Part shown: piece by piece, positions 195-21,600 of the stretch
Numbering within the stretch: the stretch's first letter is position 1
Layout: the number at the start of each line of letters is the position of its first letter
NCBI GenBank assembly: GCA_943704415.1
Contig: CALSCO010000379.1
Location: 1 to 21,827 of the forward strand
Length of the DNA: 21,827 nucleotides
Source of the DNA: Parvularia atlantis
Taxonomy: Eukaryota > Opisthokonta > Rotosphaerida
Reading direction: 5' to 3'
Position numbers and translations under genes: made by a program
Notes under the pieces: generated by a model
The model's database searches: none
What the model was told of the DNA's origin: nothing
Seen by the model: the letters and a program-made list of their open reading frames with translations, nothing else

Positions 195-1020
195 ATGCCC
201 GTGCGCCGCGCCTTGCTCTCGCGCGCCTCCGCCTCCGACGCCGCCGCGCCGCCCGCAGGCCTACCACTCGCAGTTCAACGAGGACAAGGGCGAGTACAAG
301 ACCCTCGGCAACATGTTCCTGCTGCCGATCAAGACCAAGGTTCGCGGCCCCGCGCCGCAGGCCGACGCGGGCAAGCCGGACGTGATCGACGAGGTGCGGC
401 CGCGCTTTGCGGGGCACGCACGCCGCGCTGACACACACGCGCGCACGGCAGGCGATCGAGGTCTTCCGCGCCAACGTCTTCTTCCGCAACTTTGAGATGG
501 ACGGCAACGCCGACCGCGTCCTCGTCTACCTGATCCTGTTCATCTCCGACTGCCTCCAGGTGCCGTCGAGAAAGTCCCCCCCCCCCCCCTCTAACGCGCG
601 CGCGCTGCCGCGCCAAGGTCTGCGCCAAGTGCACGGACAAGAACGACGCCGCAAAGAAGCTCAACACGCTCGCGCTCGAGTCGTTCATCGTCCCTGGCGA
701 GAAGGGCTTCGTGCTCGGCGGCATGTACGCTCCGGCCGGCCGCGACACGGGTGCGGGCTGCCGCGTGTGCATCGGGCGACCGTGCTCACGCCGCCGGGCA
801 GAGACGCTGCGGCAGTACATCTCGCAGCTGCGCCAGGAGCTGACGCTGCGCATCATCGACAAGATCTACCCGGACGGCACGCCGAGCAAGGTGCTGTCTG
901 AGGCCCGTGCCCGCGCCCGTGCATATGCTCACGGCCCCGGTCGTGGGCGCGCAGTGGTGGATCTGCTTCGCCAAGAAGCGCTTCATGAACAAGAGCTTGA
1001 CCGAGTCCAACAAGGCCTGA
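195..1020 (+). CDS. ARPC3: Arp2/3 complex subunit 3 (p21-Arc)
   Basis: Structural subunit of the seven-protein Arp2/3 complex that nucleates branched actin filaments in the cytoplasm. Exons are 195-200, 259-393, 452-559, 618-750, 802-890 and 955-1020, giving 178 residues, the same length as human ARPC3. The first exon codes only Met-Pro and is followed by the family start AYHS. Later family hallmarks are LGNMFLLPIKTK, DEAIEVFRANVFFRNFE (split by intron 2), LAL-ESFIVPGEKGF, LRQYISQLRQE and the C-terminal WWICFAKKRFMNKSL. Introns are 51-64 bases, three of them exactly 58; intron 3 contains a 14-base C tract. The tiny first exon makes the start dependent on intron 1, but the protein is complete and the identification is firm. 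Confidence 0.96.
576..589 (+). repeat. C14 homopolymer in ARPC3 intron 3
   Basis: A run of 14 C residues sits in the 58-base intron 3 of ARPC3 (560-617), just before a CTCTAAC branch-point-like motif. It probably serves as a pyrimidine tract and is a likely site of length variation or sequencing slippage. Confidence 0.7.
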
Positions 1021-1147
1021 TGCGCCCCCCTCCTCAGTCTCTGTGTTGTCCACCCGTTCCGTGCTGTGTGCGCACACGTACCGGCAGCGCGCACTTTTCC
1101 CCATTGGAGTCCCAACCGCCCAGCCCACTGGCACCACCCGCCGACAG
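1021..1147 (+). promoter_or_regulatory. ARPC3-MESH1 intergenic region with inverted CCAAT box
   Basis: A 127-base gap between two same-strand genes. ATTGG (inverted CCAAT) lies at 1103-1107, about 41 bases before the MESH1 ATG, a spacing close to that of the ARPC3 motif. It follows a short T/C-rich stretch (CTTTTCCCC). No other element is recognised. Promoter function is inferred. Confidence 0.35.
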
Positions 1148-1896
1148 ATGGACGGCGCACTGCTGCACGCGATCGACTTTGCCGCGCGCAAGCACACGAA
1201 CCAGCGCCGCAAGGACAGCGCCGCGACGCCGTACATCAACCACCCGTGCGGGCGAGGAAGGGGCCGGCCCTCCCCCATCCGTGCTGAATGCGCGTTGCGC
1301 AGCATCGGCGTGGCGTGGATCCTGTACAACGAGGGCAGCGTGCGCGATGTGGCCGTGCTGCAGGTTCGCCGGGAGGCGCTCGCACGCCCCGCACGCTGAA
1401 GGGGAGCGGCGCGCACAGGCGGCGGTCCTGCACGACACGGTCGAGGACACAGACACGACGTTTGACGAGCTGCGCGCTGAGTTTGGCCCGGTCGTCGAGT
1501 GCGCTCGCACACCGGCACACCTGCTACGCGCTCACGCCCACGCCCCGGGCGCGACAGGGGCATCGTGCGCGAGGTCACCGACGACAAGAGCCTCGAGAAG
1601 CAGGGTGAGCGCCTGCCGCTGCCGACAAAATGGGCTCTGATGCCGCGGCAGAGCGCAAGCGCATGCAGATCGAGCACGCGGCGCACGCCTCCAACGAGGC
1701 CCGCCTCGTCAAGCTCGCCGACAAGATCTACAACCTGCGCGACCTGCAGCGCGAGATGCCGCAGGGCTGGACGGCCGAGCGCGTGCAAGAGTACTTTGCG
1801 TGGGCCAAGCGCGTGACCGACCACTGCCGCGTGGCCAACGCCGCGCTCGCGGCCGTGCTCGACGACATCTACGCGCGCGGGCCGGTCCGGGCCTGA
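1148..1896 (+). CDS. HDDC3: MESH1/HDDC3-type HD-domain (p)ppGpp / NADPH hydrolase
   Basis: Metazoan SpoT homologue family. Family members hydrolyse ppGpp in vitro and act as cytosolic NADPH phosphatases in human cells. Exons are 1148-1245, 1303-1363, 1419-1498, 1558-1604 and 1652-1896, giving 176 residues (human 179). Visible hallmarks are FAARKH near residue 11, TPYINHP (His32), VLHDTVEDTDTT with the HD pair His58-Asp59, REVTDDKSL, and KLADKIYNLRDL carrying the second metal Asp. The end has EGW-like QGWTAERVQEYFAWA. All metal-binding positions of the HD fold appear intact and no synthetase or regulatory domain is attached, so it is a stand-alone hydrolase. Introns are 47-59 bases. The gene is convergent with the PH-LIM gene, 38 bases apart. 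Confidence 0.95.
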
Positions 1897-1934: not shown

Positions 1935-5210
<3,276 letters not shown>

Positions 5211-13966: not shown

Positions 13967-15264
13967 TTACACGCGCGGTGGCACTGGCGGGGGGCGCGCG
14001 GGCTTGTTGGGCGGCGGTGGTGTGTGGGAGGGCTTGGCCTGTGCGAGCGGCGTTGGCGGTGATGTCGGCTTGCCCGCTGGCGGCGCTGGTGGTGATGTCG
14101 GCTTGCCCGCTGGCGGCGGCGGTGGCGGCATCGGCTTGCCGACTGGCACGAGGAGCCCGCCTGGTAGAAAGTGAGCACATCGACCGACCAGCCCTCGCGC
14201 GCACCGGAGCTTGAGGCCTGCCGCGACGCACGGGGCGCGGGCATGGTCGGCGGGCCGCTGTCCTGCTGGAGACGCTTGATCATGTCCGCCTGCAAACGCG
14301 CCCCTCTCAGCCGCCGCACACGCCGGCACGCGCCGCACCAGCGGACTGAACTCCTTGTCCTCGACCAGCCGGAACTCGGTCGCAAAATAGTACAGGTGCA
14401 TGAACGCCAGGTTGACGTGCGTCTCGGCCCCGAGCTCTGCCGCTCGTGAGCGTGCGCCGCTCGCTGGCCGCCGCGCACACGCACCGGTGATCGTGTCAAA
14501 GTGGTGGATGAAGAGGTGCGCGTAGACGCGCGTGAGGCGCTTGAAGATGTTGGCGCAGGTCGCGCGAAAGTCCTTCGGGTACGGCACGGCTGGCGCGCGT
14601 CCCTCAGCCTCTGAACGAAGCGCCCACACGGGGTGCGCACCGGTCGTCGGCGGGAAGACGATCTCGTCGGCCAGCAGGTTGTCGATCCATGTCATGAGCA
14701 GGTCGATGTACTCGGGCGCAGGCACGACCGTCGCCGTCTTGAACCGCACGCTGCGCTCATCCTTCCACAGGTAGTCAAATCTGGCGCGCATCGGTCAGCG
14801 GCCCCTGCCGGCTGCGCGCACGCCCGCGCACTGGGTGCCCGCGGCCATCTTCGGGCAGGTCTGCGTCGTGCACGCGTCGCTCAGCGCGCCGTAGATGACG
14901 TTGGCGCGGTTGAAGAAGTCCACGACTGCGCACGCACGTTGGGGCATCGCACGTGCGGGCGTCGCGGCGCCGCACCGTGCACCGCCAGCCAATCGTTCAG
15001 GTCGCTCTCGGGCGGCAGGCGCACCGACTGCGCATCGCGCGGTTGGCGCACGGCAAGCGCACAGCACGCGCACGCGCACCTCGCGCACGTTACGTCCGGC
15101 CTTGAGCAGCGCCTTGGACTTTTTGTGCAGCTCGTAGCGCAGCGTCCCTGCGCCACCGCGTCAGGGCCATCATCGCGTCGCCCCGCGGCAGCACGCGCAC
15201 CCGGCTCGTGCCGGCGCTTCGGCTTGAACGTCTTCTCCTTGGCGAACACAGCGCTCAGCATCAC
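13967..15264 (-). CDS. MOB1: MOB1-family kinase activator with proline-rich C-terminal tail
   Basis: Mob1 binds and activates NDR/LATS kinases in the Hippo / mitotic-exit network. Exons are 15201-15264, 15080-15147, 14976-15027, 14832-14925, 14641-14780, 14485-14589, 14339-14436, 14205-14289 and 13967-14160; 299 residues (human MOB1A 216). The start resembles animals: FAKEKTFKPKRRHEPGT. Then come LPPESDLNDWLAVHVVDFFN, zinc Cys80 and Cys85 (DACTTQTCPKM), PEYIDLLMTWIDNLL, FPKDF-like YPKDFRATC and zinc His164/His169 (VYAHLFIHHFD). From about residue 236 a tail of PPPPPPAGKPTSPPAPPAGKP type follows, absent from ordinary MOB1; it offers SH3, WW or profilin ligands. Exon phases all close, and the last intron (14161-14204) leads directly into the tail. 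The start lies 27 bases after the histidine kinase stop. Confidence 0.93.
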
Positions 15265-15291: not shown

Positions 15292-18200
15292 TCAACACGA
15301 GATACAGCGACTGTGCGCGCGCGTGACGACCTCGGTGTCGTGCTCGCTCGGCACGGCCGCGACGGTGCGCCGCCGAAGCGCGACGCCCCAGCGCGTGTGC
15401 AGCGCCGCCGGCGCGTCGTCGTCCGCGGCGGCCGCGTGCAGCGACGACAGCTTCGGTCCGTGCAGGTGGCACGGGAAGCGCGCGGTGAAGGCCGCGCCGT
15501 GGCCCGGCTCGCTGCGCACGTCCATCGACCCGCCGAGCTCGCGCAAAACGAGGTTGCAAAACTGAAGCCCAAAGCCGCGCCCGCCCACGCCGGCGCCGCT
15601 CGCGCCCTCGCCGCGCTGGTCAAAGATCGCGTGCACGCTCCGCTGCTCGGACGGCGTCAGGCCCTCGCCCGTGTCGCGCACGACCAGCACGAGCATGATG
15701 CCCGCCGCGGCCGCCCCTAGCGGGCCCGAGCGCACAAAGTCGAGCTGCACGATGACCTCGCGAACGCGCGCGCGCGCCGTCGCCCGGAGCGCGTTCGAGA
15801 CGAGGTTAATCACGATCTGCACCAGCCGGTGCGCGTCCGTGCGCACGACGAGCTCCGAGAACGGGCGCGGCGGGTGCTGGAACACGAGGTGCGTGCTGTT
15901 GCAGCGCGCCTGGGCCGCGAAGATGTCGAGCGTGCCGCGGACAATGTCGACGGGCCGGATGGCGTCGTGCGGCTGGCACAGCGGCCCGGCCCCGTCCACG
16001 CGCGACAGGTCCAGGATCTCGTTGACGATGCGCGACTGGCACCCGCGCGGTGAGAGCGGCCCGCGCGCACGCCCCCGCACGACGCACACACCTGGTGGCT
16101 TACGCACTTGGCGATCGACCGGTACAGCGCCAGGTCGTCCAGGTTGAGCCACGCGAGTTTGTTTAGCAGGTAGGCCACGTCGAGGCGACGCCGGTCGACC
16201 ATAGACGCGGGCCGCTGCGTCGGGGCCGCGTCGGCGTGCTGGCGCGAGCGCGTGAGGAGATCGCTCAGCTGGCCCTGCTGCCCGCGCGCGCTCGTCTGGA
16301 GCAGGTCCAAGCTGTTCATGACCCCGTTGAGCGGGTTGCGGATCTCGTGCGAGACCAGGTCGACAAAGATCGCGTGCTTACGCCGGTGCTCCTCGGCCTC
16401 GCGGGCGCGCGCGTGCGACTCGCTCGTCGCCACCGCCACCGCCTCCATCCGGTCCGCCTCGAGCCGCCGCTGCGCGCTCACGTCGCTGACAACGCCGACC
16501 ACGCCGCGCACGCGGCCCGACTCGGGCTCGATGTCTTGCGCGCTCTGGAACCGGAGCCACTCGAGGCTGCGCGCCGCACCCGACCGCACCACGCGCACGT
16601 CCAGCCACAGCGGGTCGCGCTGGAACACGGCCGCGTACCACGCCGCGTCGAACGCCGGACGGTCATCCGGGTGCAGGCGCTCGTGCCACCTGAGCACCGT
16701 CTGCGCGGGCTCCTCGCCTTCGGCACCGAGCAGCTGCAGCCACCGCTGGTTGGCGTACGTCAGGCGGCCCTGCGCAGCGCCGAGGCGTGAGTGCGCGGCG
16801 CCCTCTGCGAACGGGTGCGCATGCCTGCGCGTCTGTGCGGAAGATGCCGACAGGGCTCATCTGCGTCAGGTAGCGGTGGCGGTCGTAGCTGTCGGCCAGC
16901 ACGTGCGTGCGCTCGAGCACGAGGCGTTGCAGGTGTCGGCGCACCCAGCCGAGCTGCGCGACCGACTGCACGCGTGCGACGAGCTCCTTGATTGAAAACG
17001 GCTTGCAGACAAAGTCGCTCGCGCCCAAGCCGAGCGCGCGCAGGCGAACCTCCTGCGTCACATGCGTCGACACGAGGATCAGCGGCAGCAGCCGCGTGCG
17101 CATGTCGGCCTGCAGGTGCTGCAGCAGCTCGAGGCCGCCCATGCGCGGCATGACCATGCTTGCCACGACCACGTCCGGGACGTCGCGCGTGGCCGTGCAC
17201 GAGATAAGCGCGCGCATGATGCACTCGAGCGCCTCTTTGCCGTCGGCGGTCACGCGCACGTCGAACGTCTGGCCAAACGCCGCCTCGATGTACTGCGCCG
17301 CACGACAGCGTGAGACAACGCTACGCAGCGGTCCGCGCGGTACCTGCCGCGTGTCGTTGTCGCTCTCGGCCACGAGCACGCGCACGCGCCGGTTCGCCAG
17401 GCTCTCGGACAGCAAATGCGACGCCGGCACGTGGCTGAGCATCGGGTCGCTCATCCAGGCGGGGGCGGGGGGCACGCGCACGTCCGGCCGGCCCTCGTGC
17501 CACTCGACGACGATCTCGCTCGCGGGCTGGGCGTCCTGCGTCGCCGAGGCCACGGCGGCCATGTGCATGTCCGTGTCGTGCTCCGTCGCCGTCACCGCAG
17601 CGTCGACCGCCGCTGCACCTGGCCACGGGTCCGACGAGGAAGAACGCTGGCCCGACGACCGCCGCGACTGCGCGTCGCCGCCGCTCGCGCTCGTCGATGA
17701 CACGGGCGAGACCGGATGCGAGCCGTCGTTGCTGTTGTCGTCACCGCCGCGCCCGTGCACCGTCCGGCTGCTGTCGGTGCTGGCGTTGTCGCCGCCCTGG
17801 ACGATCTGCTCGGGCGGGAGATGCGCGCAGCCCAGCGGGATGTAGGCCGTGAAGACGGAGCCGCGGCCCTCGACGCTGCGCACGCTCATGCACCCGCCGT
17901 GCAGCTTGACGAGCTCGAGGGTCATGGCCAGGCCGATGCCCGAGCCCTCGTGCGCGCGCGCGTGCGTAATCGGCACCGTCGCGCGGAAGAAGCGCTCAAA
18001 TACGTGCGGGACGTCCTTGGCTGCGATGCCGCACCCGGTGTCCTCCACGCACAGCACGGCCGCGTCCGTGCGCTGCAGATCCGCGTGGACCTCGTCCAGC
18101 GGCGGGGCGAAGAGCACGTGCGGAGGGCATGAGACGTCTGCAGGCGGCAGCGTGCCGCGATTGAGCGTCACGACGATGCGCCCGCTCGGCGTGTACTTGA

Positions 18201-19163
18201 ACGCGTTCGAGAGCAAGTTGAGTACGATCTTCTCCCACATGTCGGCGTTGATGTACGCGGGCTCGCCCAGCGCCGATGCATGCACGAGGAACTGCAACCC
18301 CGCCGCCTCGACCACGGAGCGGAACATGCTCGCAACGTCGATTGTGACCCGCGCCAGGTCCACGGGTGCGAACGTGGCCGTGTGGCGCTCGGTCTGGATC
18401 TGGCTGTAGTCGAGCAGGTGGTTGACGAGCTTAAGCAGCGCGCGCGAGTTGCGGTGGATCATCGCCATGCGCTCGCGCTGCACGGGGCTGAGGGGCACGT
18501 CCTTGTCGTTGGCCATGTCGGTGATCGGGCCCTCGATGAGCGTCAGCGGCGTGCGCAGCTCCTGCGACACGCGCGCGAAAAAATGCGCCTTGCTGCGACC
18601 GATCTGCGTCAGCATCTGCGCGCGCGCGCGCGCGTCAGTTGAGAGCGCGCGCACACATTCTTACACGTGCCTCGGCGCGCGCGAGCTCGGCCTCGTGCGC
18701 GGCGGCGAGGCGCAGAGCGTTGGACAGCTGGCCGACGAGCAGGTCCATGTGCAGCTGGTACTTGTCGTCGAACGCGCGGAAGCTGTTGAGCCCGACGATG
18801 AGCACGCCGCGCACGCCGTGCGCCCCGCCTGTGTCGATCTTGCACATGTACGCCTGCGAGCACGTCTGGCCGCTCGGCCCGTCTGCGCCCCCGCGCGCGT
18901 AGTCAGACACCCAGCCTTGGCACGCCACACCGCGCACCCGGGAACGGCGCACCAAAGCGCTCGGCAATGTCGGCCACGACGAGCCGTCCGCCGGGCGAGC
19001 GCCGCAGTGCCGCCACGGGCCACGTGTCATCGCCCGCCGCGCTCAAGTGCGACACCATGGCTGGGTGGTCGGACGGGAGCACGGCCGCGGCGCACAGACG
19101 GTAGAGCTGCGCACGGTGGCGTCAGCGGGAAATGTGGACGTTGTCATGCGCGCGCTCTCACGT

Positions 19164-19195
<32 letters not shown>

Positions 19196-19886
19196 CTGCC
19201 ATCGTTGCAGGCCAGGTACAGTTGCATGAAGAGCACGTCGAGGCACTGGCGTGACAAGACAGCGCGGCAGGCCGTGCAGACGTCGGCAATCGTGCGCGCG
19301 GCCGACAGGCCCATCGCGAGCTCGTGCACGCGTTGCATACGCTGGCTAACCATGACGCGCTGCGTCGTCTCCATCGCCTGCGAGGGCCGTCAGCACCGGG
19401 CGACGCAGCGCGCGCGCGCGCGCGCGCGCACGATTGACATCGACCCGGCCCAGCTTCCGTCGTCCTCGCGCGCGGCCGACATCGTGCCCTTAAAGTACGT
19501 CTCCTCAAAGCTTTCGCCGCGCTTGATGATAAACTGCTCGTCGTACCACTCGAGCGTCCGCCCGGCGCGCACGGCCGCGAGGTTGGGCGCAAGCCGGTCC
19601 TCCCAAATGTCTGGCCAGACGAGGTGCGCTGCGCGGACGTCAGACAGCGCGCGGGGGGCCGCGGCCGCGTCGCACCGGGCTGGCAGAGTGAGCCCGGGTG
19701 CAGCTTGGCAAACATGGGGCGCGCGGCGTCATTGTAGAGCGTGATGGCGTCGGGGCCCCAGTAGAGGATCATGGGGAAGCGCGAGTCGAGCATCAGCTGC
19801 ACCGTGCAGCGCAGGCGCGGCGACCAGCTCGCGAGCTCGCCGCGTCGCTCGCGCTCGGCCAGCAGCGCCGCGATACCGTCGTGCAT
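15292..19886 (-). CDS. Dual-module sensor histidine kinase: PAS-GAF-HK(pseudo)-REC(pseudo)-PAS-HK
   Basis: Predicted soluble sensor, 1385 residues. Exons are 19676-19886, 19432-19628, 19162-19377, 18953-19106, 18665-18882, 17344-18615, 16825-17292, 16092-16769 and 15292-16035. PAS is near 25-130 (VQLMLDSRFPMILYWGPD, YNDA); GAF is near 150-320, with a GDGDGDGDGDD insert. In kinase 1 (about 333-620) the H-box reads RVSQELRTPLTLI with Gln350 instead of His; N-box LNLLSNAFKYT, G1 EDTGCG and G2 GSGIGLAM are intact. A Ser/Asp-rich linker follows. In the receiver (about 743-870), VLVAESDND replaces the acidic pair partly and VVVASMVMPRMGG has Ser801 instead of the phospho-Asp; the Lys in CKPF remains. 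PAS 2 contains HPDDR. In kinase 2, SHEIRNPLNG has His1053, with INLVSNAL, RDTGEG and GGRGFGLQ. No receiver follows. Intron 7 is GC-AG. There are no membrane helices. Confidence 0.92.
16770..16824 (-). other. GC-AG intron of the histidine kinase
   Basis: CAG|GCATGC donor and GCGCAG acceptor, 55 bases, phase 0. It joins FRTDAQ to GRLTYANQRWL, the start of the second PAS domain. The 55-base length is not a multiple of three, so removal is required, and no in-phase GT donor is nearby. Confidence 0.65.
18618..18634. repeat. Alternating GC run at a kinase intron acceptor
   Basis: Seventeen bases of alternating G/C directly before the acceptor of intron 5 (18616-18664), preceded by a CTGAC branch-like motif. 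Confidence 0.65.
19162..19197. repeat. GTCGCC hexanucleotide repeat coding Gly-Asp
   Basis: On the minus strand this codes GDGDGDGDGDD within the GAF domain of the histidine kinase, at the end of exon 3. It is an in-frame hexanucleotide microsatellite, so copy number could vary without breaking frame. Confidence 0.75.
19408..19429. repeat. Alternating GC run at a kinase intron donor
   Basis: Twenty-two bases of alternating G/C, beginning just inside the donor (GTGCGC on the minus strand) of intron 2 (19378-19431). Confidence 0.65.
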
Positions 19887-20011
19887 CGGTGGGGCGAAGT
19901 GCGCAGGCAGTGCGTCACACGGCGACCGGGTCCAGTGTCATGGTATCGAAATTCGCAGTCACGTGCGCGCCCGTGCTTGTCGCGCGCTGACCTCTGCGCG
20001 CCAGCACAGCC
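19887..20011. promoter_or_regulatory. Divergent promoter region kinase / thiolase
   Basis: 125 bases between opposite start codons. It holds one less GC-rich patch, GTGTCATGGTATCGAAATTC near 19935-19955. No standard box is recognised. Confidence 0.3.
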
Positions 20012-21600
20012 ATGCGCGCCGTGTACATCGTCGCCGCGAAGCGCACGCCGTTCGGCGCGTTTGGCGGCAGCCTCAAGGTGCGTGCGCGCGCGCGTGTTTG
20101 GCTCGCATCAGACGCGCACGCGCAAGGATCACTCGGCCACCGACCTCGCCGTGCACGCGGCCAAGGCGGCGCTGGCCGAGTCCAAGGTGCGCGCCACCGC
20201 GACCGGCGACAAGCGCGGCTGCTGACGCCCTCGCACAGGCGCCGCTGGACGCCTTCGACACGGTCAACTTTGGCAATGTGCAGCAGACGTCCAACGACGC
20301 CGCCTACCTCGCGCGCCACGTCGGCCTGCGCGCGGGCCTGCCCGTGCCCGTGCCGGCGCTGACCGTCAACCGCCTGTGCGGCTCCGGTGCGGCCGCGGCG
20401 CGTGCGAGGCTCCCGCTCAGACGCTCGCGCGCAGGCTTCCAGGCCGTGATCAACAGCATGCAGGAGATCCAGCTCGGCCTGGCCGAGCTCTCGCTCGCGG
20501 GCGGCACCGAGAGCATGAGCCAGGCGCCGTACGTCGTGCGGGTGCGTCGAGGGGCGTGCGCGTGTGGCCGGCGCTGATGGCGCACAGGGCACGCGCTTTG
20601 GCGCGCCGCTCGGCGCCAACATCCCCTTCGAGGACTCGCTCTGGGCGGGCTTGTACGACACGTACCCAAAGGCGCGCGGCGTGTGGCGCGTGGCGCTGCC
20701 GCTACTGCTGACGGGGGGGCCTGCAGCTGCCGATGGGCATGACGGCCGAGAACCTCGCGGCCAAGTACAATGTGACGCGCGAAGAGAGCGACAAGTTTGG
20801 CTTGCGCAGCCAGACGCGGTACGCGCAGGCGCACAAGGCCGGCGTGTTCCGCGCCGAGATCGCGCCGATGGAGGTCAAGATGAAGAAGGGCCCCGTGACG
20901 CTGGACAAGGACGAGGGCCCGCGCGAGACCTCGCTCGAGGCGCTGCAGAAGGCGCGTCGGCCCGCGCGCCCGCCCGCCGCACCTGACAGCACCCACAGCT
21001 CAAGCCCACGTTTAAGAAGGACGGCGTCGTTACGGCCGGCTCGGCCTCGGGCATCACCGACGGCGCCGCGGCTCTCGTGCTCGCGAGCGAGGACGCTGTC
21101 AAAAAGTACGGCCTCAAGCCGCTCGCGCGCATCGTCTCGTACCACTACGCCGGCGTCGACCCGAGCATCATGGGCATCGGCCCGTGCCCCGCCGTTCAGG
21201 TGCGTGTGGCGTGTGTGTCGCGCAGCCGGCCTCCCTCACACAGCGCACGCAGGGCGCGCTCAAGAAGGCTAGCCTCAGCCTGGACAAGATGGACCTGCTC
21301 GAGGTCAACGAGGCGTTTGCGCCGCAGGTGATCGCGGTCGCGCGCGAGCTTAAGATTGACGTTGAGCGCCTCAACAAGAACGGTGCGCGGGTGCTGCGGC
21401 GCGCCACTCGCCGGCCGTGCCGCTCATGCAGCGCAGGCGGCGCAATTTCGCTCGGCCACCCGCTCGGCGCGTCGGGCGCGCGCATCACGTCGCACCTCAC
21501 GCATGACCTCATCCGCACGAAGGGCAAGTACGCCGTCGGCTCTGCGTGCATCGGCGGCGGACAGGGCATCGCCATCGTGCTCGAGAACGTGCACGCGTGA
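20012..21600 (+). CDS. ACAA2: 3-ketoacyl-CoA thiolase / acetyl-CoA acyltransferase, ACAA2-like
   Basis: Thiolytic cleavage of 3-ketoacyl-CoA in beta-oxidation, or acetoacetyl-CoA metabolism. Exons are 20012-20077, 20127-20186, 20239-20386, 20435-20541, 20588-20680, 20727-20951, 20999-21199, 21253-21382 and 21437-21600; 397 residues, equal to human ACAA2. The start [16 protein letters not shown] matches the uncleaved N-terminus of mitochondrial ACAA2. Cys89 (NRLCGSG), His351 (GHPLGASG) and Cys381 (ACIGGGQG) form the catalytic set; NEAFAP is present. There is no PTS1-type C-terminus (ends VHA) and no visible PTS2, so mitochondria are more likely than peroxisomes. The intron at 20952-20998 is GC-AG. 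Exon 5 may end at 20671 instead of 20680 with another GC donor, which would give 394 residues and better match the animal spacing. Confidence 0.94.
20952..20998 (+). other. GC-AG intron of the thiolase
   Basis: AAG|GCGCGT donor and CCACAG acceptor, 47 bases, with CTGAC 13 bases before the end. It joins LEALQK to LKPTFKKDG, exactly where animal ACAA2 reads QLQK-LPPVFKKDG. The nearby GT donors do not keep frame. Confidence 0.75.

Follow-up and report, generated by a model that had tools for sequence, protein, structure and literature searches.

We analysed the whole of contig CALSCO010000379.1 of Parvularia atlantis (21,827 bases, 70.5% guanine plus cytosine, GC), one of 616 contigs in a 16.25 Mb assembly (GCA_943704415.1). 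This stretch is the window, and we refer to it and to the kinase gene it carries as C94. The gene encodes a dual hybrid histidine kinase in which the first kinase module (HK1) and the receiver that follows it (REC1) have both lost their phospho-acceptor residues. A single chain of 1390 residues, spliced by hand from nine exons, carries two HisKA-HATPase modules, as in fungal dual hybrid histidine kinases. The receiver that such kinases have after each module is present after the first and absent after the second (REC2), and the four phospho-sites of the two modules are reduced to the His of the second kinase (HK2). C94 descends from the dual hybrid histidine kinase family, which has undergone an expansion in this genome, and is an incomplete member of it. 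By its sequence, we class it as non-relay. Our favoured, tentative reading is that C94, as a pseudokinase–pseudo-receiver, acts on full-length paralogues in trans, in the manner of the bacterial proteins DivL or RetS.

Phospho-acceptor sites of the first kinase and its receiver

An earlier note on this DNA had reported Gln in the H-box of the first kinase. We read the codon directly and found CAG, in the context VSQELRTPL; the residue is 355 in our model and was 350 in the note, as the choices of start and exons differ. The remaining boxes of this kinase are canonical, as had been claimed: NLLSNAFKYT (N), DTGCG (G1), FERFFR (F), and GSGIGL (G2). For the HK1 exon, AlphaFold2 predicted an ordinary fold made of a dimerization and histidine phosphotransfer domain (DHp) and a catalytic ATP-binding domain (CA). 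The mean predicted local distance difference test score (pLDDT) was 83.8, with most CA blocks above 90 and two weak stretches, residues 161-180 and 211-230 of the predicted model, at 50-72; the second of these lies close to where the ATP lid is expected. Matches of this model in the PDB include HK853, GacS, RetS, and DivL (4q20). HK1 is, on this prediction, a pseudo-histidine kinase, that is, a predicted histidine kinase fold with Gln at the H-box.

Gln355 could be a base-call or assembly error, as CAG and CAC are one base apart. We regard this as very improbable: a base-call error would leave the other replaced residues and the missing REC2 described below unexplained, and HK1 has a single match of 100% in the genome, followed by one of 55%. 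Alternatively, His348, which precedes Gln355 by one heptad in the same helix (KAHFFARVSQ), might substitute as phospho-acceptor. No His occupies this position in the eight other HK1s of the genome, and a displaced His has been suggested for a Caulobacter kinase in the available text of PMC11481889. Nevertheless, His348 lacks the E-R-P context of an H-box and REC1 would be unable to accept its phosphate, so that we give this proposal hardly any credit. In the accessible part of the literature on RdsA and Dictyostelium DhkD, we found no precedent for a displaced His or a pseudo-kinase.

In REC1, the phospho-Asp is replaced by Ser806 (codon AGC), and the stretch reads VVVASMVMPRMGG in C94 versus AIISDVMMPRLDG in the paralogue C5. 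The earlier note had this Ser as residue 801; it lies outside the interval that the note covered, in the next exon. The altered acidic pocket that the note had described was likewise found on alignment with paralogues, the acidic pair being Glu-Ser (GAG-AGC) instead of the Asp-Asp of the intact ones (VLVAESDND in C94, VLLVDDNAD in C5). Both Ser806 and Ser755 are two base changes away from Asp, and Gln355 is one base from His. The receiver retains its conserved Ser (VST) and Lys (CKPF), and the spliced protein still matched the receiver family at 60.8 bits in a Pfam search. REC1 is, by these residues, a pseudo-receiver: a receiver match with the phospho-Asp and the acidic pair replaced. The proposal that the first kinase and receiver are both degenerate was thus borne out at Gln355, Ser806, and the Glu-Ser pair. 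The motifs used here, the H, N, G1, F, and G2 boxes and the five receiver residues, are standard, as described in the parts of PMC4965123 and PMC8510515 that we consulted.

The earlier note had also considered that an alternative exon might restore the Asp of REC1. This found no support. The intron within REC1 (17343-17293) has the same column and phase in 7 of 7 paralogues with a spliced model covering the site, and Ser806 lies well inside the next exon. Moreover, in a splice-aware alignment each of the eight C94 introns shares its column and phase with at least four of eight paralogues, which makes an exon mending REC1 unlikely.

The absence of REC2 had escaped the earlier note, as had the family of related genes in the genome. 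A six-frame search of the contig returned two HisKA, two HATPase_c, and one receiver match, and no PF00072 match besides REC1. With REC2 absent and REC1 degenerate, the C94 chain has no intact receiver. Kinase 2 keeps SHEIRNP, NLVSNALRAT, DTGEG, and GRGFGL, and its F-box is altered; its His1058 is the sole classical phospho-site remaining in C94. As HK1 lacks its His, REC1 lacks its Asp, and REC2 is absent, no His-Asp transfer can take place within the chain, and the output of C94 must be in trans or phosphate-free. The earlier note had pictured HK1-REC1 as an allosteric or nucleotide-binding module feeding an intact second kinase. The first half of this proposal may hold, as the retention of the first CA domain (CA1; 40 of 43 invariant sites, see below) would fit such a role. 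The second half found no support in this form: the F-box of kinase 2 is altered, its DHp domain (DHp2) evolves fast, and the recipient REC2 is absent. A module feeding kinase 2 would have no output, since no His-Asp transfer occurs within the chain.

C94 might still be a working kinase without a receiver. In this case, HK2 would autophosphorylate His1058 and donate the phosphate in trans, either to another dual kinase's receiver or to a free response regulator, with HK1-REC1 as no more than a regulatory insert. The H, N, G1, and G2 boxes of kinase 2 are present, both of its Pfam domains score above cut-off, and other loci of the genome carry intact receivers. Against this stand the altered F-box and the diverged DHp2. 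Fungal relay requires Hpt, and a search of the assembly for Hpt (PF01627, E ≤ 0.001) returned no match, although introns or assembly gaps may hide one. We consider such a kinase unlikely.

Pseudo-histidine kinases and pseudo-receivers are known singly, mostly from bacteria and plants. We evaluated how often the two sites are lost in 347 distinct proteins from three homologue searches (the best 120 of thousands in each) plus C94, counting only sites covered by a profile match; these lists were picked by similarity and therefore lean towards intact proteins. Non-His residues were found at 2 of 547 readable HisKA sites, in C94 and in P0328, and non-Asp residues at 2 of 621 readable receiver sites, in C94 and in P0340 (Asn). 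Only C94 combined both losses in one chain. Both P0328 and P0340 are jgi-sourced and carry no fungal label; wherever the sites could be read in the fungal proteins of the 347, they were His and Asp throughout. The H-box of P0328, a hybrid kinase, reads MSQEIRTPM, the identical His-to-Gln change. For comparison, the available text of a 2025 review gives missing His in 0.9% of bacterial HisKA domains, missing Asp in 2.0% of receivers, and about 5% pseudo-receivers in fungi, mostly in Rim15, and names yeast Rim15 as the only fungal pseudo-receiver with a published characterization (PMC12632262); another source gives about 3% in fungi apart from Rim15 (PMC8510515, part of the text). A literature search over titles and the beginnings of abstracts, with subscription papers mostly uncovered, found no fungal dual kinase described as having both a pseudo-HK1 and a pseudo-REC1. 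The component parts of C94 are of known kinds, and their combination is without a report in the literature searched.

Uneven conservation and descent of C94

We then compared the domains of C94 at invariant sites, defined as those constant in a set of 16, namely 13 fungal sequences from outside this genome together with C252, C5, and C130, with a letter present in no fewer than 14 of them. C94 kept 17/19 of these sites in the sensor PAS, 8/11 in the GAF, 18/25 in the first DHp domain (DHp1), 40/43 in CA1, 24/40 in REC1, 7/9 in the second PAS, 19/27 in DHp2, and 24/34 in the second CA domain (CA2). The difference between CA1 and REC1 within C94 gave a Fisher p of 0.0005. Values pooled from the paralogues C294, C533, C462, and C502 served as a reference; C39 (REC1 16/30, a partial row) and C521 were kept out of the pool. 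In CA1, C94 did not differ from the pool (163/172; p=0.71), whereas in REC1 it did (129/157; p=0.005), and DHp1 was intermediate (p=0.06). These p-values are rough, as sites belonging to one domain are not independent of each other.

Nonsynonymous differences pointed in the same direction. They were 0.27 in CA1 and 0.41 in REC1 between C94 and C5, 0.29 and 0.37 between C94 and C130, and 0.31 and 0.40 between C94 and C252, versus 0.22 in both domains for the intact pair C5-C130. DHp2 was accelerated, with 0.37 between C94 and C5 versus 0.20 between C5 and C130, and CA2 hardly so (0.44 versus 0.41). The ratio of nonsynonymous to synonymous change was unusable because synonymous differences are limited by a third-position GC above 90%. 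Collectively, site retention and nonsynonymous differences indicated that CA1 is the best-kept signalling module of C94.

The family members of this genome formed one group versus 13 chytrid, Basidiobolus, and Bifiguratus sequences, with support of 100/100 in the tree of the HK2 region and 100/99 in that of the N-terminal half. This single grouping in both trees indicated a lineage-specific expansion within the set of rows used. The C94 branch is long, at 2.7 in the HK2 tree and 1.77 in the N-terminal/HK1 tree, where it is the second-longest end branch after that of C533. C94 grouped with C39 (support 68/74), which fits either one shared or two separate losses in REC1. C276 joined C130 on a very long branch, and its loss of domains therefore looks separate, the support being weak (89/70). 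Among the 120 best matches listed for the C5 kinase, the top ones were Basidiobolus, unnamed eukaryote transcripts, and chytrids. Lavin (2014) is cited for dual hybrid histidine kinases in early-diverging fungi. In the portions of the papers available, this group was once held to be restricted to Basidiomycota (PMC4965123) and was later found in early-diverging fungi (PMC5285503).

A possibility was that these losses reflect gene decay, that is, relaxed constraint after duplication, with the phospho-sites and REC2 lost as C94, without function at present, turns into a pseudogene. The branch of 1.77, the absence of REC2, and the state of other relatives, broken or stripped (C135 with at least one in-frame stop, C276 without HK1-REC1 and REC2), are in keeping with decay. 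On the other hand, all 1390 codons are open, without stop or frameshift, the splice sites are shared, and third-position GC is 0.90-0.94 in C94 segments versus 0.92-0.94 in the four paralogues computed. Besides, the loss is uneven, the ATP domain being selectively kept. We judge decay to be rather doubtful, bearing in mind that the case for C94 as a working protein comes from conservation of its sequence, in one assembly.

Sister genes and possible action in trans

HisKA, receiver, and HATPase searches with spliced models gave 11 dual-kinase loci including C94, plus the broken fragment C135. The earlier note had raised the question of whether the Gln and Ser are shared by orthologues. Among the sister genes they do not recur: the phospho-His is kept in 8/8 other HK1 H-boxes, and also in C135, and the phospho-Asp in 7/7 other REC1s preceded by a readable HK1; the REC1 of C39 has His. 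All four phospho-sites and both ATP sites are retained in C252, C5, C130, and C294; in C294, the middle PAS could not be aligned. C462 and C502 keep the His and Asp of the first module and run off contig ends, and C521, close to a duplicate of C462, runs off its contig after the H-box. The His of HK2 is kept in 8/8 readable members and the Asp of REC2 in 6/6 members having this receiver. The fragment C135 (about 2807-3185) is a broken HK1 copy close to C462/C521.

Three further members are damaged in other ways. C533 has HK1, REC1, and the second phospho-sites intact, and its second ATP site is ruined (N-box NLLGQAANST, G1 DPSLV); it is a mirror image of C94. In C39 (region 1-1230), a second pseudo-receiver is found, with VASPDD at the acidic pair and VVSHVFVRGMDG with His for Asp; the phospho-sites of HK2 and REC2 are intact. 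Its contig begins 728 bases upstream of REC1, which starts at base 729, and these bases gave no HK1 match. They include a serine-rich stretch, and an 80-residue stretch matched the DHp1 profile weakly (6.4 bits, equalled by 5 of 2000 shuffles) and may be what is left of a DHp. As the gap between CA1 and REC1 is 168-678 bases in the eight other members, either CA1 is gone from C39 or its linker is longer than in all eight. Lastly, C276 (3974-7052) passes directly from a GAF-like region to PAS-HK2, with no match for HK1, REC1, or REC2; the second H-box is the only phospho-site it keeps. Its second ATP domain matched Pfam at 43.7 bits, with Ser for the first N-box Asn and without DxGxG.

This inventory raised the idea that the family is split into complementary part-kinases: C94 without the phospho-sites of HK1 and REC1 and without REC2, C39 without the Asp of REC1 and perhaps the HK1 catalytic domain, C276 with only the second His, and C533 without the second ATP site. 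For some pairings, a full relay would call for mixed dimers, in which the intact CA1 of C94 or C533 phosphorylates the His of another module. If true, tandem kinases with reciprocal damage would together make up a combinatorial sensor. We hold it to be improbable, and the share of C39 in it is weakened by the gap comparison above.

We return to trans regulation, the favoured reading. With the phospho-site of HK1 lost and CA1 well kept, C94 probably steers partner sensors. CA1 would bind ATP and set the shape of the dimer, and C94 would pair through its DHp helices with full-length paralogues, for example C5, C130, or C252; together with C294, these are the full-length candidates in the genome. 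Pairing would raise or lower the relay of the partner, as DivL does on CckA and RetS on GacS. REC1 could in addition bind and inhibit HK2, as the ShkA pseudo-receiver is described to bind and inhibit the HisKA of its own chain in the available text of PMC12632262.

DivL of Caulobacter resembles HK1 in its boxes: the H-box residue is replaced and the H, N, G1, F, and G2 boxes are kept. From the accessible text (PMC4211667), DivL acts without kinase activity, its core serving as a sensor module. It differs from C94 in having Tyr for His, and PAS domains with one kinase module, without second kinase or pseudo-receiver. RetS of Pseudomonas aeruginosa is likewise a hybrid kinase that acts on another kinase without autophosphorylation, and it is a structural match to the HK1 model; according to the part of PMC5992135 available, it takes phosphate from GacS, dephosphorylates it, or blocks it. 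The phosphate-taking route uses a receiver Asp and is therefore closed to C94. RetS lost its G-boxes and kept three phospho-sites, whereas HK1 of C94 kept the boxes and lost the site. As for REC1, bacterial pseudo-receivers, plant pseudo-response regulators, and fungal Rim15 also have receivers without phospho-Asp, as far as the sources available describe them; REC1 differs in being placed between two kinases of one chain. Lastly, fungal dual hybrid kinases such as Cryptococcus Tco2 and Fimicolochytrium P0004 provide the overall plan. C94 shares the order PAS/GAF-HK1-REC1-PAS-HK2 with P0004 and is alignable along the chain (Tco2 itself was not among the sequences compared), and it differs in the replaced His, Asp, and acidic pair and in lacking REC2.

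Several points weigh against trans regulation. The long branch in the HK2 tree and the fast DHp2 also fit relaxed constraint, and DHp1 lost 7 of 25 invariant sites. DivL is reported to bind ATP weakly (PMC4211667, part of the text) despite intact boxes, so that intact boxes are no proof of binding. A trans partner of C94 is assumed. Finally, no C94 orthologue in another species was found among the matches listed, which gives no support for retention over speciation.

In C94, a pseudokinase is followed by a pseudo-receiver within a dual kinase of fungal type, and the sister genes are intact or otherwise damaged. The family is a natural series for asking what an extra kinase module does without phosphate relay, and why an ATP domain is retained.

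Gene model, domain coordinates, and neighbouring genes

The order of domains is PAS/GAF-like sensor, HK1, REC1, PAS, and HK2. Of the eight introns, each 47-56 bases long, seven are GT-AG and one is GC-AG. A 37-nucleotide intron 4 in a first model was replaced by one of 55 nucleotides that agrees with the paralogues. Three extra introns called by script in the CA1 insert and linker were not adopted, two of them having no counterpart in paralogues, and the hand model reads through all three. The Pfam run used the first model, which is 6 residues longer (numbering +6 after about residue 260), and this model was also one of the 14 rows of the profile for the paralogue alignment. The Pfam search gave no family above cut-off in the sensor region.

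Table 1. Features of C94, by position in the window
Feature	Position	Strand	Details
Whole gene	15292..19886	-	exons 19886-19676, 19628-19432, 19377-19162, 19106-18938, 18882-18665, 18615-17344, 17292-16825, 16769-16092, 16035-15292
Sensor region, PAS-like and GAF-like, with introns	18616..19886	-	aligned to 13 fungal dual kinases, mean identity 31% and 23%
HisKA (DHp) of kinase 1	18391..18591	-	PF00512, 46 bits
Gln355 for phospho-acceptor His	18562..18564	-	codon CAG, in VSQELRTPL
ATP-binding (CA) domain of kinase 1	17833..18234	-	PF02518; boxes all canonical
Putative pseudo-receiver REC1	16966..17379	-	contains intron 17343-17293; PF00072 at 16966-17271, 59.6 bits
Glu-Ser for acidic Asp-Asp pair	17362..17367	-	GAG-AGC; Asp-Asp in intact paralogues on alignment
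Ser806 for phospho-Asp	17158..17160	-	codon AGC, in VVVASMVMPRMGG
PAS between REC1 and kinase 2	16464..16881	-	ends approximate; contains GC-AG intron 16824-16770; PF13188, PF08448, PF08447 above cut-off
HisKA of kinase 2	16245..16367	-	PF00512, 32.5 bits; His1058 codon CAC 16349-16347
ATP-binding domain of kinase 2	15469..15837	-	PF02518, 70.4 bits; N, G1, G2 kept, F-box altered
Short C-terminal tail where full-length paralogues carry REC2	15292..15468	-	about 60 residues, then frame closes

Matches in neighbouring frames of the contig were to ARPC3 (534-1637, plus strand), a PH domain (3494-4822, minus strand), Mob1/phocein (13970-14794, minus strand), and a thiolase N-domain (19768-20577, plus strand). 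The Mob1-like gene follows the tail of the C94 kinase.

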